From Kineococcus endophyticus (GTDB lineage Bacteria > Actinomycetota > Actinomycetes > Actinomycetales > Kineococcaceae), in the NCBI RefSeq assembly GCF_040796495.1, contig NZ_JBFNQN010000012.1:124001-188000 (forward strand): a stretch of DNA of 64,000 bases. Direction: 5' to 3'. Numbering within the stretch: position 1 is the stretch's first letter; each line of letters opens with the position of its first letter. The notes under the pieces are model-generated. The model was not told where the DNA came from. It did no database searches and saw nothing but the letters and a program-made list of their open reading frames with translations. Positions 1,754 to 45,247 of this stretch are shown one piece after another. Both the position numbers and the translations under genes were made by a program.

Positions 1754-3202
1754 GTGCCTGCCGACGACCTGCTGACCCCTGCCTCCTCGACCGTCCCACC
1801 CACCCCGTCCCGGCCGTCCCCGTGGGCGCCGCTGCGCCCGCTGGTGCTGCGCCTGCACTTCTACGCCGGGGTCCTCGTCGCCCCGTTCCTGCTCGTCGCC
1901 GCCGTCAGCGGCACGCTCTACGCCGCCACCCCGCAGCTCGAGGACGCCGTCTACCGGCACCAGCTGCACGTCGTCCCGTCCGCGGCCCAGGTGTCCCTGG
2001 CCGACCAGGTCCGCGCGGCCGTCGAGGCCCACGGCGGTGGTGACCCGGTCGCCGTGCGGCCCGCGCCCACCCCCTCGGACACCACCCGCGTCCTGTTCTC
2101 CGACCCCTCGCTGGGCGAGTCCGAGCGCCGCGCCGTCTTCGTCGACCCCGGCACGGGCGCCGTCCGCGGCGAGCTCACGGTCTACGGCACCAGCGGCGTC
2201 CTGCCGCTGCGGACGTGGGTGGACCAGCTGCACCGCAACCTGCACCTCGGGGAACCGGGACGGCTGTACAGCGAGCTCGCGGCGTCGTGGCTGTGGGTGC
2301 TGGCGCTGTCCGGCCTGGGGCTGTGGGCCGCCCGGCGGGTAGGGGCGCGTCGGGCGACGCGTCCGACGGTCCGGGGCAGCCGCGCCCGGACGCGGACCCT
2401 GCACGCCGTCGTCGGGACGTGGCTCGCGGTCGGTCTGCTGGGGCTGTCGGCGACGGGCCTGACCTGGTCGACGTACGCGGGGGAGCGGGTGACCGCGCTG
2501 CGCAGCGCGCTGTCGTGGCAGACGCCCGTCGTGGACACGAGCGCGACCGGGCACGAGGGTCACGGGGAGCACGCGGGGCACACCTCGTCCAGACCGGTGG
2601 GGGCCGGTGCAGAGGCCAGCCCCGAGGCCTTCGCGCAGATCCTGGCGGCGGCCCGCGTCGCGGGGCTGACGGCCGCGAAGATCGAGGTCAAGGCCCCGGC
2701 CGCGCCCGGTGCGGCGTGGAAGGTCGACGAGGTCGACCGCGGCCTGCACACCCAGGTCGACTCCGCCGCGGTCGCCCTCACCGCCACGAGCGCGGGGGCT
2801 CTCGACGCGCAGGTGGTGGACGTCGTCCGCTTCGAGGACTACCCGTTCGCGGCCAAGCTGGCCCGCTGGGGGATCGACCTGCACATGGGCTCCTTCGGGC
2901 TGGGCAACCAGCTCGCGCTGATCGCCCTGGGCCTGGGGCTGACCGCGGTCGTCGTGTGGGGCTACCGCATGTGGTGGCAGCGCCGCCCGGACCCGGCCCG
3001 GCGCCTGGCCGTCGGCCCGCCCGCCCACCGCGGTGCGTGGCGGCAGCTGTCGCGTCCGGTGCTGGTCGCCGTCGTGCTCGTCACCGCCGTCGTCGGGTGG
3101 GCGGTGCCGCTGCTCGGGGTGTCGTTGGTGGCGTTCGTGGTGGTCGACGTGGTGCTGGACGTCGTGGTCGGTCGGGTGCCGCGGGTCCGCCCGGCGCCCT
3201 GA
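1754..3202 (+). CDS. PepSY-associated transmembrane protein with His-rich loop
   Basis: About 482 residues with the plan of PepSY_TM proteins: a first membrane helix near residues 30-55 (HFYAGVLVAPFLLVAAVSG), an extracytoplasmic PepSY region, a second helix pair near 175-240, another PepSY-like region and C-terminal helices around WGIDLHMGSFG. Relatives include inner-membrane siderophore or iron reductases. A loop near residues 266-277 reads HEGHGEHAGH, a likely metal-binding patch. GTG at 1754 is preferred because GAGGA at 1744-1748 sits 5 bases upstream; GTG at 1742 and 1712 are in-frame alternatives. A role in metal handling is inference. Confidence 0.8.
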   Translation: MPADDLLTPASSTVPPTPSRPSPWAPLRPLVLRLHFYAGVLVAPFLLVAAVSGTLYAATPQLEDAVYRHQLHVVPSAAQVSLADQVRAAVEAHGGGDPVAVRPAPTPSDTTRVLFSDPSLGESERRAVFVDPGTGAVRGELTVYGTSGVLPLRTWVDQLHRNLHLGEPGRLYSELAASWLWVLALSGLGLWAARRVGARRATRPTVRGSRARTRTLHAVVGTWLAVGLLGLSATGLTWSTYAGERVTALRSALSWQTPVVDTSATGHEGHGEHAGHTSSRPVGAGAEASPEAFAQILAAARVAGLTAAKIEVKAPAAPGAAWKVDEVDRGLHTQVDSAAVALTATSAGALDAQVVDVVRFEDYPFAAKLARWGIDLHMGSFGLGNQLALIALGLGLTAVVVWGYRMWWQRRPDPARRLAVGPPAHRGAWRQLSRPVLVAVVLVTAVVGWAVPLLGVSLVAFVVVDVVLDVVVGRVPRVRPAP

Positions 3203-3231
3203 CGGACGACGGAGTTTCCTGTCGCTCAAGT

Positions 3232-3276
3232 CTTGCCTGAAGGGAAAGTCAGCGGGTAGCTTTCCTCTCAGGCAAG
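3232..3276. promoter_or_regulatory. Promoter with 17-bp imperfect inverted repeat
   Basis: Arms 3232-3248 and 3260-3276 pair at 15 of 17 positions (outer 9 bp perfect: CTTGCCTGA / TCAGGCAAG) around an 11-base spacer. TTGCCT at 3233-3238 and TAGCTT at 3257-3262 with 18 bases between look like -35 and -10 boxes embedded in the repeat. The small membrane protein starts at 3305 after GAGGAAGG at 3288-3295. The likely reading is an operator for the winged-helix regulator encoded second in this two-gene operon. Confidence 0.6.
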
Positions 3277-3304
3277 AACGAACCGACGAGGAAGGACCTC
3301 CACC

Positions 3305-3730
3305 GTGGACGCTCGCGAAGCACAGCAGGCCCTCACCGAGGCCGCTCACCGCCGTCAGCAGGCCGTCACGGCCGGCACCGCGCCCTGGACGAAGGGCCAG
3401 GTGTGGAGCCTGTGCTCCTGCGCCCTCGCCCTCGGAGTGCTCACCGACGCCGGCATGATCTGGTTGTGGGTGCTCCTCATGCTCATGGGCGTCGGTGTCG
3501 CCTGGCGGCGGGGGGTGCAGCTGCGGTCGACCCGCAGTTCCGGCCGCTGGCAAGCGGCCCTGCTCGCCACGGTCGTCCCGGCGATCGCCGCGAACGTGCT
3601 GTTCCAGGCCGTCGCCCGGGGGCTCGACTGGCCCCTGCCCAACACCGTCGGCATGGTCGGGGCCTGCCTGGTCATCGTCACCCTGACCCGTGCGGTGCAG
3701 GCCCGGATGGTTGCGAGCCTGCGCCCGTGA
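3305..3730 (+). CDS. Small four-helix membrane protein, regulator-linked
   Basis: 141 residues. The first 30 are soluble and Ala/Gln-rich, followed by about four hydrophobic helices (WSLCSCALALGVLTDAG, MIWLWVLLMLMGVGVAW, WQAALLATVVPAIAANVLF, MVGACLVIVTLTR). The GTG start has GAGGAAGG 9 bases upstream. Its stop overlaps the GTG of the winged-helix regulator by 4 bases, so the two are translationally coupled and probably one functional unit. No catalytic motif is visible; similar membrane-protein/HTH pairs are common in actinobacteria but uncharacterised. Confidence 0.8.
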   Translation: MDAREAQQALTEAAHRRQQAVTAGTAPWTKGQVWSLCSCALALGVLTDAGMIWLWVLLMLMGVGVAWRRGVQLRSTRSSGRWQAALLATVVPAIAANVLFQAVARGLDWPLPNTVGMVGACLVIVTLTRAVQARMVASLRP

Positions 3731-40625: not shown

Positions 40626-41804
40626 GTGTGGGAGACCTGGCGGGAGGAGATGCGGCACTGGGGACAGCCACGCTGGCGCGAGTGGTTCGACGACCGAGCC
40701 CGACGTGTGGCAGACGACGAGGGCCGGTCCCGGCAAGTCGGCGTCGCACGTCGGCGGAGGCTCGAGGAGGAACGACGGCGCTTGGGGATTGACGAGAAGG
40801 ACGTCGACCGACGGCGGGAACTGTTCCGTCAGGACCGCGAACGCCACCCCGAGACCCGTGAACTGTGGAAGGAGTGGGAGCAGCGGCGGACCGTCCGCGA
40901 GCACGAGGTGCTCGCCTACCCCACGCTGACGCTGCGTCGGCACGCCGACCTTCGCCCCGACGACACGTCGCCGCCTGTGGAGCCGTTGACCGTCGGCTTC
41001 GGCGCTCTCGGGGACGCCGTGGCCCTCTGGCCGGGCAGCAACGAGGGTGGTGAGGGGGTCGTCAGTCGGCACGGCTCTGACGGTCGTTGGAACGACCGCA
41101 CACCGCTGTCTTCGCGGTCCCCTCGTGGGCACGTCCAGCCGTTGCCCGACGGTGAGGTGCTGTTCGTCGACGCCAGGTGCCGCCGCGACGAGCACAACGC
41201 TGCCGTGTACGACGAGAGCGGTCGAGTCCTGCGCACCGCCCACCTCGGCGACGGCATCGAACACGTTCTCACCACCGCCGCGGGTGCGGTGTGGACCGCC
41301 TACTTCGACGAAGGCGTCTTCGCCATGAGAGGGCTCAGCACGCACGGCCTGGTCCGCTTCGGTTCCGACCTGTCGCCGCAGTGGCGGTACCCGCAAGCGC
41401 GTCAGACCGACCTGCCGGTGATCTCCGACTGCTACGCCTTGAACGTCGCTGGAGAAGCGGCGTGGACCTGTGCGTACGTGGACTTCCACCTGGTCAACGT
41501 CGACGACGCGCGGGCCGTCGACCACGGCCCTGCCCCCGTGAGCGGGGCCAGCGGGCTGCTCGTCGAGGGCGCCCGAGCCGCGCTCATCGGCGCATCCGCC
41601 GGCGGGCGCGGCGTCGTCACCCCCGTGCACCTCACCGACGACGGACTGCGTCCGGCCGGTCCACCCCGCCGGCTCGTGCTGCCCGACGGTGCACCGGTTC
41701 CGACCCTGCAGTTCGCGCGCTTCACCTGCCGGGGGCCCGAGCTGCACGTGGCCATCGGGGCCACCTGGTACCGGTTCGACCTGGACGACGTCCCAACAGG
41801 CTGA
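40626..41804 (+). CDS. Hypothetical protein: charged helical head plus beta-propeller-like body
   Basis: 392 residues. The first about 95 are dense in Arg, Glu, Asp and Trp (WETWREEMRHWGQPRWREWF, RRRRLEEERRRLGIDEKDVDRRR). The remainder is a repeated beta pattern (VGFGALGDAVALWPG, GHVQPLPDGEVLFVDARC, AAVYDESGRVLRTAHLGDG, GAVWTAYFDEGVF) typical of WD/NHL-like propellers. No catalytic residues recognised. CACGAT at 40614-40619 lies 6 bases before the GTG, so it has its own leaderless promoter. It follows the phosphotransferase and small helical genes. Confidence 0.7.
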   Translation: MWETWREEMRHWGQPRWREWFDDRARRVADDEGRSRQVGVARRRRLEEERRRLGIDEKDVDRRRELFRQDRERHPETRELWKEWEQRRTVREHEVLAYPTLTLRRHADLRPDDTSPPVEPLTVGFGALGDAVALWPGSNEGGEGVVSRHGSDGRWNDRTPLSSRSPRGHVQPLPDGEVLFVDARCRRDEHNAAVYDESGRVLRTAHLGDGIEHVLTTAAGAVWTAYFDEGVFAMRGLSTHGLVRFGSDLSPQWRYPQARQTDLPVISDCYALNVAGEAAWTCAYVDFHLVNVDDARAVDHGPAPVSGASGLLVEGARAALIGASAGGRGVVTPVHLTDDGLRPAGPPRRLVLPDGAPVPTLQFARFTCRGPELHVAIGATWYRFDLDDVPTG

Positions 41805-41882
41805 GGTGCCAGGACCGCCGTCGTCGTCTTCATGCACACCACGCCGGCACGCGGCGGGTCCGCGACCCCGCGACTGAACTGG

Positions 41883-41909
41883 TCAAGTCCCCACGGTGAC
41901 CGTCGATGG
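41883..41909 (+). promoter_or_regulatory. FliA/WhiG-type promoter candidate upstream of chemoreceptor
   Basis: TCAA (41883-41886), 15 bases, then GTCGATGG (41902-41909). The flagellar/WhiG sigma consensus is TAAA-N15-GCCGATAA, so 3 of 4 and 5 of 8 bases agree, including the CGAT core, at the exact spacing. It lies about 60 bases upstream of the chemoreceptor ATG. Motility genes are normal targets of this sigma class. Confidence 0.5.
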
Positions 41910-41970
41910 AACGTTGTCGACCCCCGACGGGCCGACCGACGCGTCCCCCCGTCCCAGGAGCACCCACCCC

Positions 41971-43593
41971 ATGGCGACCACGCCCCGCACGCCGAGGACC
42001 CGCTTCGCCGACCGCTCGGTGGCGACGAAGCTCGCGGCGCTCATCGCGACCTCGACGGTCATGGCCGGCGGCCTCCTCGCCGTCGGGCTCCAGGGCATCT
42101 CCGACGTCACCTCCCGCGCCGACGCCATCTACGCCGAGAACCTCGTCCCGGGCGCGGCCCTCGGCCAGGTCCGCGCGTCGACGATGCAGGCGCAGCGCGA
42201 CCTCGCCAACCTGGCGCTGGCGCAGGACGACGCGGCCCGCCAGGACCTGCAGCAGCGCATCGCGGCCGACGACAAGGCCGTCGCCGACCACCTCGACACC
42301 TTCCGCACGGCCGCGACGACACCGGCCCAGCGCACGCAGGTCGCCACCTTCGACACCTGGTGGACCGCCTACCGCGGCACCCGCGACAACTTCCTCGTCC
42401 CCCTCGCCACGTCCGGCGACGCCGACGACCGCGCCAAGTTCCAGACGCTCTACCTCGGCAACGTCGCGCTCCTGGCCGGCAAGGCCGAGGCCGCCCTTGA
42501 CCAGCTCGACACGCTCTCCCAGACGTCGGCGCAGGGGTCGGTGGCCGCCGCCCACCACAGCGACGGCCGCGCCCGGCTCGTCCTGGTGCTCGTCACGGCC
42601 GGTGGGGTCCTGCTCTCCGTCCTGCTCGCCGCGTGGATCACGCGCCTCGTCGTCCGCCCCCTGCGCCGCGTCGTCGACGTCCTGGGCAAGGTCGCCGACG
42701 GCGACCTCACCGCGAGCGTCGACATCGACCAGCGCGACGAGGTCGGCCGCATGGCCGTCGCGCTCGGCGCGGCGACGGAGAGCATGCGCCGCACCGTGTC
42801 CGGTCTCGACGACGACGCCTCGGCGCTCGCCGTCGCGACCGAGCAGCTCCAGGCTGGCAGCCGTCGCATCGCCGAGGGCGCCCAGGACGTCTCCGACCGC
42901 GCCGCCACGGTGGCGCAGGCCGCCGGCGAGGTCAGCGCCAACGTCGGGGGCGCGGCCGCCGGGGCGGAGGAGATGGGGTCCTCGATCCGCGAGATCTCCT
43001 CCAACGCGGCCCGCGCGGCCGAGGTCGCGGGCAACGCCGTCCAGGTCGCGGCGGCGACGGGCGACACGATGGCCCAACTCGGCCGCTCGTCCGCCGAGAT
43101 CGGCGACGTCGTCAAGACGATCACCTCGATCGCCGAGCAGACGAACCTGCTCGCCCTCAACGCGACCATCGAGGCCGCGCGCGCCGGCGACGCGGGCAAG
43201 GGCTTCGCGGTCGTGGCGGGAGAGGTCAAGGAACTGAGTTCCCAGACGGCCCGCGCGACCGAGGACATCGCCCGCCGCATCGACGCCATCCAGCGCGACG
43301 TGCAGGACGCCGTCGCCTCGATCGGCAGCATCGGCACGGTCGTCGCCGAGATCAGCGACTACCAGGGCACCATCGCGGCGGCCGTCGAGGAGCAGGCCGC
43401 CACGACGCAGGAGATGGGGCGCAGCGTCGCCGACGTCGCGACGGGTGCCGGCCAGATCGCCGCGACGATCGACACGGTCGCCGCCGCCGCCCGCTCCACC
43501 GGTCTCGGTGCCGCCGAGTCCGACCGCGCCGTGAGCGACCTGGTGGAGATGACCGCGCGCATGCGGTCCACCGTCGCCGGCTTCCGCTACTGA
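41971..43593 (+). CDS. Methyl-accepting chemotaxis protein
   Basis: 540 residues: membrane helix near 20-40, a four-helix-bundle type extracytoplasmic sensor (about 41-200), second helix near 201-228, HAMP ([22 protein letters not shown]) and a cytoplasmic signalling domain whose hairpin tip is [18 protein letters not shown] (about 388-405). It controls CheA and flagellar rotation. ATG 41971 is preferred over GTG 41896, which lies inside the proposed promoter; AGGAG is at 41956-41960. The next gene, 31 bases away, encodes a sugar-binding lipoprotein, the probable ligand carrier for this receptor. Confidence 0.93.
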
Positions 43594-43624
43594 CCCGCCC
43601 GCTGACCCGCAGGAGAACAGACTC

Positions 43625-44704
43625 GTGAAGCGCTCCCACCGCGCCCTGTCCACCGCGGCCCTCGGCCTGGCCCTCACCGCCGGGCTCGCCGGCTGCGGGG
43701 ACGGCACGACCGGCACGACCGCCGCCGCCCCGGCCGAGGCCCCGCACATCGCCTTCCTCGTGCCGTCGACGTCGCTGCGCTCGCTGACCTACGACGTCCC
43801 GAACTTCACCGTCGCCCTGCACGAACGCTGCCCGACCTGCGTCGTCGACGTGCAGACGGCCGCGGACCAGGCCACCCAGAACAGCCAGGGCCGGCAGGCC
43901 GTGACGGCCGGGGCCAAGGCGGTCGTCCTCGTCGCGATCGACGGCGCGCAGGCGGGCGACCTCGTGAACGCCGCGAAGTCCGCCGACGTCCCCGTCGTCG
44001 CCTACGACCGGCTCGTGAAGGACGTCCCGCTCGACTACTACGTGTCGTTCGACGGTGGGGCCGTCGGCAAGCTCGGCGCGCAGGCCATCCTCGACGCGGC
44101 GGGCCCGGACACCTCCGGGGGCGCCGTCGTCATGCTCGAGGGCGACCCGGCCGACAACAACGCCGGCCTGTTCGCGGCGGGCGCGCACTCCGTCCTGGAC
44201 GGCAAGGTCGCGATCGCCGACGAGCGCTACGTCGCGGGCTGGAGCTCGAGCCAGGCCGAGGTCGAGATGACCGAGGCGCTGAAGTCCCTCGGCGGCCGCA
44301 AGCTCCTCGGCGTCTACACCGCCTACGACGGCCTGGCCGCCGGTGCGCTGCAGGCGCTGGACAAGGCCGGGTACTCCGGCGTGCCGATCACCGGGCAGGA
44401 CGCCGAGACCGCTGCCCTGCAGCGCATCCTGGCCGGGACGCAGACGATGACGGTGTTCAAGGACCTCCCGGCGCAGGCCCGCGCGACGGCCACGGTCGTC
44501 GCCGACGTCCTGGACGGCAAGACGCCGCAGACCACGGGCACGACGGACAACGGCAGCGGCGCGGTGCCGACCGTGCTGCTGCAGCCGGAGGCCGTGGGCA
44601 AGCCGGAGATCACGAGCAAGGTGCTCGCCACCGGCTACACGACGGCCGACGCGCTGTGCGCGGGTGCGGCGAGCACGCTCTGCGCCCAGCAGGGCATCGG
44701 CTGA
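43625..44704 (+). CDS. Sugar-binding lipoprotein (periplasmic-binding-protein family)
   Basis: 359 residues. A lipoprotein signal ends LAGLAGC with Cys24 to be lipidated, then a Thr/Ala linker, then a type I binding protein fold of the ribose/xylose class (HIAFLVPSTSLRSLTYDV, VVLVAIDGAQAGDLVNAAKSADVPVVAYDR, YYVSFDGGAVGKLGAQAIL, LGVYTAYDGLAAGALQAL, GQDAETAALQRILAGTQTMTVFK). GTG start with AGGAG upstream. No ABC permease or ATPase accompanies it. Being in the chemoreceptor operon, it is likely to serve sensing rather than uptake (inference). Confidence 0.92.
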   Translation: MKRSHRALSTAALGLALTAGLAGCGDGTTGTTAAAPAEAPHIAFLVPSTSLRSLTYDVPNFTVALHERCPTCVVDVQTAADQATQNSQGRQAVTAGAKAVVLVAIDGAQAGDLVNAAKSADVPVVAYDRLVKDVPLDYYVSFDGGAVGKLGAQAILDAAGPDTSGGAVVMLEGDPADNNAGLFAAGAHSVLDGKVAIADERYVAGWSSSQAEVEMTEALKSLGGRKLLGVYTAYDGLAAGALQALDKAGYSGVPITGQDAETAALQRILAGTQTMTVFKDLPAQARATATVVADVLDGKTPQTTGTTDNGSGAVPTVLLQPEAVGKPEITSKVLATGYTTADALCAGAASTLCAQQGIG

Positions 44705-44736
44705 CACGACACCGGCGCGCGACCGTTTGCCGCCTC

Positions 44737-44770
44737 CGGACGGGTGGGTGAAGCTTCACCCACCCGTCCG
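44737..44770. terminator. 34-bp perfect palindrome, probable terminator
   Basis: Arms 44737-44753 and 44754-44770 are perfectly complementary over 17 bp with no spacer; the centre is AAGCTT. The element lies 32 bases after the binding-protein stop and 4 bases before the osmC ribosome-binding site. As RNA it makes a long GC-rich hairpin without a U-tract, fitting termination of the chemoreceptor operon; a dimeric regulator site for osmC is the alternative. Confidence 0.72.
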
Positions 44771-44785
44771 ACCAGAGGAGCACCC

Positions 44786-45247
44786 GTGAGTCCGAAGACC
44801 GTGCCGTTCGTCGTCCAGGCCCAGGGGACGGGGGTCGCCCAGGACCTCACCGTCCCGGGCGACAACCAGCACACCTTCAAGGCCGACACCTACCCGTCGT
44901 TCGGCGGGCAGGACGCCGCGCCGAGCCCGCTGAGCTACGCCCTCGGTGCGCTGACCTCGTGCAACCAGGTGACCGGCAGCATCGTGGCGAAGGACCTCGG
45001 GGTGCAGCTGGGCACCTGGTCGTTCCAGGTCCAGGGCGACCTGAACCCGGCGGTCATCGGCTCGGGCGCCGAGGGCAACGCGAACTTCGACCGGGTCACC
45101 GTCAAGGTGACGGTCGAGACGGACGCCGACGACGCCACCTTCGCGACGCTGCGCGACGAGACCGAGCGCCGCTGCCCGGTGACGCAGCTGTTCAAGCGCA
45201 GCGGCACGGACTTCAGCAGCGACTGGGAGCGCCTGCCCCTGTCCTGA
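44786..45247 (+). CDS. OsmC/Ohr-family protein
   Basis: 153 residues of the OsmC fold. Redox cysteines are Cys in ALTSCNQVTGS and Cys in ERRCPVTQLF, the two positions used for peroxide reduction in this family. Other landmarks are FKADTYPSFGGQDAAPSPLSY and VTVKVTVETDADDATF. It is expected to reduce organic hydroperoxides in the cytoplasm. GTG 44786 has AGAGGAG 5 bases upstream. The 34-bp palindrome lies immediately before it. Confidence 0.9.
   Translation: MSPKTVPFVVQAQGTGVAQDLTVPGDNQHTFKADTYPSFGGQDAAPSPLSYALGALTSCNQVTGSIVAKDLGVQLGTWSFQVQGDLNPAVIGSGAEGNANFDRVTVKVTVETDADDATFATLRDETERRCPVTQLFKRSGTDFSSDWERLPLS

Follow-up and report, generated by a model that had tools for sequence, protein, structure and literature searches.

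Dual use is the textbook state of Peripla_BP_4 proteins. RbsB and MglB of E. coli are soluble, serve ABC importers as well as a receptor and are not known to be encoded with that receptor. In the window, the whole stretch of 64,000 nucleotides from Kineococcus endophyticus analysed here, a lipoprotein of this family is encoded directly behind an MCP gene, which raises the question whether such a protein can be devoted to chemotaxis alone. The original prediction placed the two genes 31 bases apart with no ABC permease or ATPase at the locus. Coordinates, strands and gap are exact (Table 1), and neither kind of gene is found among the neighbours of the pair, an upstream gene without Pfam match and a downstream OsmC-like gene. 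We regard a two-gene chemotaxis operon with a chemotaxis-dedicated binding lipoprotein, comparable to BasB/BasT, as the probable explanation. It builds on the order of the genes, the families they belong to, the class of the promoter, conservation and the lack of a linked transporter, all of which we observe. The lipoprotein probably works only as a food-finding sensor for swimming cells.

Table 1. Coordinates of the promoter elements, genes and encoded domains of the MCP/binding-protein pair in the window
Feature	Position	Strand	Basis
-35-like element TCAA, FliA/WhiG-class promoter	41883..41886	+	class motif, kept in orthologous operons
-10-like element GTCGATGG, 15 bases past -35	41902..41909	+	class motif, kept in orthologous operons
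MCP, 540 aa	41971..43593	+	ATG start, AGGAG upstream; Pfam 4HB_MCP_1 + HAMP + MCPsignal
4HB_MCP_1 extracellular sensor bundle, residues 16-192	42016..42546	+	Pfam 78.4 bits vs cut-off 27
HAMP domain of MCP, residues 222-273	42634..42789	+	Pfam 43.8 bits, above cut-off
MCPsignal domain of MCP, residues 345-507	43003..43491	+	Pfam 115 bits, above cut-off
Intergenic gap, 31 bases, with AGGAGA ribosome-binding site	43594..43624	+	sequence
XylF/ChvE-like sugar-binding lipoprotein, 359 aa	43625..44704	+	GTG start; Pfam Peripla_BP_4
Lipobox LAGC, C24 = predicted lipid anchor	43685..43696	+	sequence; C24 in 12/12 proteins of alignment A1

The first gene of the pair encodes an MCP with signalling domain, HAMP domain and extracytoplasmic sensor, all scoring above the Pfam cut-offs. 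Its start is likely ATG 41971 and not the first in-frame GTG (41896), because AGGAG lies just upstream of the ATG and the GTG overlaps the promoter. Profile searches detect 30 MCP matches in the 5.04 Mb, 46-contig genome, and the set of such pairs and their relatives would help to assign ligands to some of them. Three MCPs lie on contig C18 (L059, G000:C18:50001-70000), where few genes are called and the MCP codon scores are low; C18 may therefore be a plasmid or acquired DNA.

The second gene encodes a binding protein with predicted lipidation, its lipobox LAGC ending at C24. The predicted fold (mean pLDDT 91.9) best matches the E. coli xylose-binding protein (3ma0) among solved structures, with an Actinobacillus binding protein and ChvE next in rank. 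The label "ribose/xylose-type" of the original prediction is right for the fold, XylF/ChvE being closest, whereas for the ligand xylose is no more than a candidate. By NCBIfam the protein scores too low for XylF (189 bits, TIGR02634 cut-off 389.55). Fold, lobes and most pocket motifs are common to the window protein and the XylF/ChvE transport binding proteins; it differs from them in lacking transporter genes and the first-loop RW motif and in scoring below the NCBIfam xylF cut-off. The pocket motifs YDR, DNN, W206, D235, GQDA and K279, common with XylF/ChvE, are kept in the eight orthologues of A1, and the protein of a second pair in G009 deviates at several of them. In XylF-type proteins the Trp of the first-loop RW stacks on the sugar, although a PMC search found no paper confirming this stacking. 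RW is absent from 9/9 Kineococcus clade rows of A1 and from 4/4 Kineococcus rows of A2, a fold alignment of the window protein with 41 of 56 listed loci (L119 taken with a later start), and is present in 37 of the 38 non-Kineococcus rows of A2. All nine Kineococcus clade rows of A1 also carry CxxC at residues 69-72. We considered RW loss and CxxC as marks of a chemotaxis role and rejected this: RW is replaced by RY or RF and CxxC is present in 11/11 order-level loci, including all ten that are transporter-linked, and both are therefore marks of the subfamily. A small sugar or polyol is the best guess for the ligand.

Concerning the promoter, the original prediction of a FliA/WhiG-like site stands with one correction: the promoter class is real in this genome and its relatives, but the published consensus is matched only partly. 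TCAA-N15-GTCGATGG, upstream of the MCP start, agrees with TAAA/GCCGATAA at only 8/12 bases and thus falls outside the two-mismatch rule given with that consensus (PMC8325347). We read a local pattern, TCA(A/G)-N15/16-G(C/T)CGAT(G/C)(A/G), from the MCP upstream regions, the window MCP included. A TCA(A/G)-N15/16-G(C/T)CGATG(G/A)-like site recurs upstream of most of the 28 MCP genes scanned; the two other MCPs, both on C18, have no gene call. Exact matches lie within 200 nt upstream of 12/28 MCP and 3/350 non-MCP genes (p about 8e-13) and matches within one mismatch upstream of 20/28 and 14/350, counts that are partly circular on the MCP side, since the pattern was derived there, and free of this circularity for the non-MCP genes, the reversed pattern and the relatives. 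Because 20/28 MCP genes carry the local pattern within one mismatch, the window promoter is convincing despite its 8/12 score. Of the three non-MCP genes with an exact motif, one is flgN and another is a PAS gene overlapping an MCP gene. The window contains TCAA-N15/16-GYCGATSR once (0.02 expected) and its TCAG version not at all (0.17 expected), and genome-wide the TCAR form has 77 exact sites, the reversed pattern four. Neither a sigma-70-type promoter, by consensus scan, nor a T-tailed terminator was found in 41700-44900.

Forty-four of the 77 exact sites lie outside called genes with a start codon within 300 nt, at no more than 150 nt in 40 cases; of the other 33, 26 are inside genes and seven have no called start downstream. 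Twelve of the 44 downstream genes encode MCPs. Eight non-MCP genes, chosen as motility-looking and hence not a random sample, gave Pfam matches to CheA, CheB, FliS, a rod protein, FlbD, FlgN, a type IV pilin-like protein and a T2SSE ATPase. Among the remaining 24, four carry a GG(D/E)EF string and further ones have no obvious link to motility. The -35 and -10 elements at 15-16 base spacing, common to motility genes, place the site in the FliA/WhiG class. Both types of factor are encoded: WhiG on C5 (NF004935, 403 bits, cut-off 343) and, about 1.2 kb from flgN on C8, a FliA-like factor whose 188.5 bits narrowly miss the TIGR02479 cut-off (189.6). As FliA and WhiG types have a common promoter specificity (PMC8325347), the motility sigma factor could be either. 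A sigma-28 gene within a motility island is reported for K. radiotolerans (PMC2587704).

Some sites of this class deserve mention in their own right. On C13, a T2SSE ATPase gene and a type IV pilin-like gene (L270:296-1699 and 3163-3597) lie behind exact sites; such T2SSE, pilin-like and GG(D/E)EF genes with the motif resemble the WhiG targets described for Rubrobacter. Twelve of the 44 sites are only 5-12 nt ahead of the start codon, which suggests leaderless mRNAs.

A cognate permease elsewhere in the genome would speak against a protein used for chemotaxis only. The genome profile search gave 13 PF02653 matches, grouped into ten systems, and every one of the ten has its own adjacent, Pfam-confirmed binding protein (eight Peripla_BP_4, one Bmp, one Peripla_BP_6). 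No permease needing the window protein was found, and the idea of an orphan permease awaiting it was rejected for these ten systems. The closest relatives of the window protein in the genome, 35% and 38% identical, belong to two XylF/ChvE-type importers (C11:80432 and C13:112741). Peripla_BP_4 itself has 44 matches in the genome, the weaker ones mostly taken unsorted and presumably including LacI-type regulators. Two strong Peripla_BP_4 proteins sit at contig ends (C5:95 and C16:315) of the 46-contig draft, so that adjoining permeases are out of view there and others could sit in gaps.

The family set comprises 12 genomes, with ten other Kineococcus and one sister genus (G011). Only Kineococcus is represented among the three named relatives that are 69-72% identical to the binding protein; named loci L119, L120 (K. 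rubinsiae B12) and L121 are the same records as G008, G006 and G002. Orthologues of the binding protein (67-83%) are present in eight of the ten other Kineococcus. An MCP lies directly upstream in six of these (G001, G004, G005, G006, G008 and G010), so that the adjacency seen here with its 31-base gap is kept in six further species. In G002, a 1060-contig assembly, the orthologue is cut by a contig end and the MCP sensor was not found (best match 28%); the orthologue in G009 (76%) has no adjoining MCP. Counting our own species, the pair is present in 7/8 species with an orthologue and readable flanks; given G009 and G002, pairing is either not obligatory or not provable there. G003 and G007 contain no orthologue, their only matches being transporter-linked, and no MCP sensor closer than 26-32% identity. 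The pair sits in at least four different neighbourhoods (three called genes per side compared). Moreover, the motif is exact in 6/6 operons with a correctly called MCP start, our own included, and was read by eye in G008.

The exception in G009 is informative. The lone orthologue has TCAG-N16-GCCGATGG 122 nt upstream and is preceded by a reductase-like gene 51% identical to the gene upstream of the MCP in G006; this common neighbour suggests, without proving it, that the MCP was lost from between the two genes. G009 also holds the second pair mentioned above, with MCP sensor at 47-48% and binding protein at 44-45% identity. In the sister genus the binding protein comes before the MCP and the motif before the binding protein. 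The protein of G011 groups with XylF-type proteins across a 100/100 split, on a branch flagged as long, and its pair is therefore probably an independent recruitment. A 40% relative with an MCP ahead of it also turns up in a different family of the order (G150, L308); the tree does not resolve its position.

As a control, we compared the genomic context of relatives. Seventy of 77 relatives in named genomes lie beside ABC ATPase or permease genes, one of them (L157) also about 5 kb from an MCP; two, both Kineococcus, have an MCP without ABC genes, and five have neither, one of these at a Kineococcus contig end. The corresponding counts for 27 family loci are 16 with ABC genes, eight with an MCP only and three with neither. 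At order level, matches were obtained in 50 of 396 genomes, our own genus included, and 10/11 new loci, taken as best matches, have ABC genes. In a tree of 41 proteins, built from 30 of 31 family matches plus the 11 loci added at order level, context labels were clustered, none of 500 shuffles being as low, for ABC and for MCP alike. The Kineococcus binding-protein clade has 100/99 support and stands apart from the transporter-linked clades; the outer joins of the tree are uncertain owing to several long branches.

Binding proteins of an unrelated family are also found beside receptors. On C10 (L053:3993-6488), the gene of a further MCP has that of an SBP_bac_3 lipoprotein 27 bases behind it, and a motility-type motif with one mismatch lies 72 nt before the MCP. 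This pair recurs in G003 and G005 and in divergent arrangement in G009. Among the five SBP_bac_3 proteins of our own genome three lie beside ABC genes, one beside the MCP and one alone. A stand-alone copy exists in G005 as well: a lipoprotein gene (L332:1399-2370) directly behind an exact motility-class motif, with no MCP or ABC genes within 1.5 kb on either side. We do not claim motility control for the lone gene of our own genome, its motif having two mismatches.

Three separate binding-protein lineages adjoin MCPs in this family of genomes, and at least three candidate recruitments are visible: the Kineococcus Peripla_BP_4 protein, the XylF-type protein before an MCP in the sister genus and SBP_bac_3 beside another MCP. 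It is about an even call whether motile actinobacteria have repeatedly turned ABC binding proteins into transport-free, receptor-coupled lipoproteins of the motility regulon, some of which outlive their receptor and would plug into another MCP. The G009 orthologue and the G005 SBP_bac_3 copy may be read as such survivors.

Which other explanations could account for the window pair? The lipoprotein might serve transport as well, loading an unlinked CUT2 importer in the manner of RbsB and MglB and being merely co-transcribed with the MCP. The genome does hold two importers with related binding proteins, 10/11 loci of the closest relatives from other genera of the order are linked to transporters, and these relatives share RW loss and CxxC with the window protein. 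Yet each of the ten PF02653 systems is supplied by an adjacent binding protein, the orthologue stands behind a motility-type promoter even where no MCP adjoins it, and the clade to which it belongs lies apart from those linked to transporters, so that we hold dual use to be unlikely.

It is more improbable again that the MCP senses its ligand directly while the lipoprotein has some other envelope role and adjacency only reflects joint expression in motile cells. 4HB sensors can bind small ligands directly, as in Tar and Tsr, and G009 has the lipoprotein without this MCP. Against this stand the joint presence of both genes in nearly all readable species and their joint absence from G003 and G007, together with the three lineages beside MCPs. 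That the promoter-like site arose by chance, with constitutive expression of the pair, as the 8/12 agreement with the published consensus might indicate, can hardly be upheld in view of the exact genus-level motif in orthologous operons, the excess of sites over the reversed pattern and the small number expected in the window. A binding protein used for chemotaxis only, as originally predicted, is supported by the permease search, the genus-wide pair and promoter, and the promoter of the lone G009 orthologue.

A dedicated receptor-coupled lipoprotein could work as follows. In motile cells, both genes would be transcribed together by a FliA/WhiG-type sigma factor. Once exported, the lipoprotein would be anchored by C24 on the outer face of the membrane and would close there on a small molecule that is probably a monosaccharide or polyol. 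In its closed state it would dock on the MCP's four-helix-bundle sensor and alter CheA activity, and no ligand would be delivered to a permease.

Binding-protein-mediated chemotaxis is already known as a kind. To our knowledge, binding proteins used for chemotaxis only are best known from archaea. BasB and CosB are reportedly lipoproteins, and BasB is said to serve taxis, in work ascribed to Kokoeva (2002). In Halobacterium salinarum, BasB, CosB and two more putative binding proteins, together with SRII, copurified with Htrs 2, 3 (BasT), 5 (CosT), 6 and 18 (PMC3579733). BasB-BasT and CosB-CosT are substrate-binding proteins partnering membrane transducers, as proposed for the window pair. These systems are archaeal with amino-acid and osmolyte ligands, whereas the pair described here joins an XylF/ChvE-type protein to a 4HB receptor of a bacterium, behind a FliA/WhiG-class promoter. 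In E. coli, the Peripla_BP_4 sugar-binding proteins RbsB and MglB signal through the MCP Trg (PMC5557919); unlike them, the window protein is a lipoprotein encoded in a receptor operon without transporter. GlnH-GlnX-PknG of Corynebacterium glutamicum couples a lipidated binding protein to a membrane protein with two outer Tar-like four-helix bundles (PMC9769921). Its output is a Ser/Thr kinase and not chemotaxis, and GlnH binds aspartate and glutamate. The top matches of a PMC search contained no paper on Kineococcus chemotaxis or on an actinobacterial MCP-binding protein operon, which is not proof of absence, nor was the dedicated, operon-encoded, transport-free actinobacterial form from several recruitments found among them. 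In this bacterial set the promoter class is common, one orthologue stands alone and paralogues tied to transporters occur in the same cell; it would lend itself to testing the conversion of a transport protein into a dedicated sensor.

The interval that separates the binding-protein gene from the OsmC-like gene contains a perfect 32-base palindrome (44738-44769); the fold of its region (44705-44785) has -45 kcal/mol and a z of -5.2. We considered it as part of the operon and rejected this. The palindrome core is found again ahead of the orthologous osmC-like gene in G005, and more weakly in G001, and therefore resembles an osmC operator or a stem separating the units.
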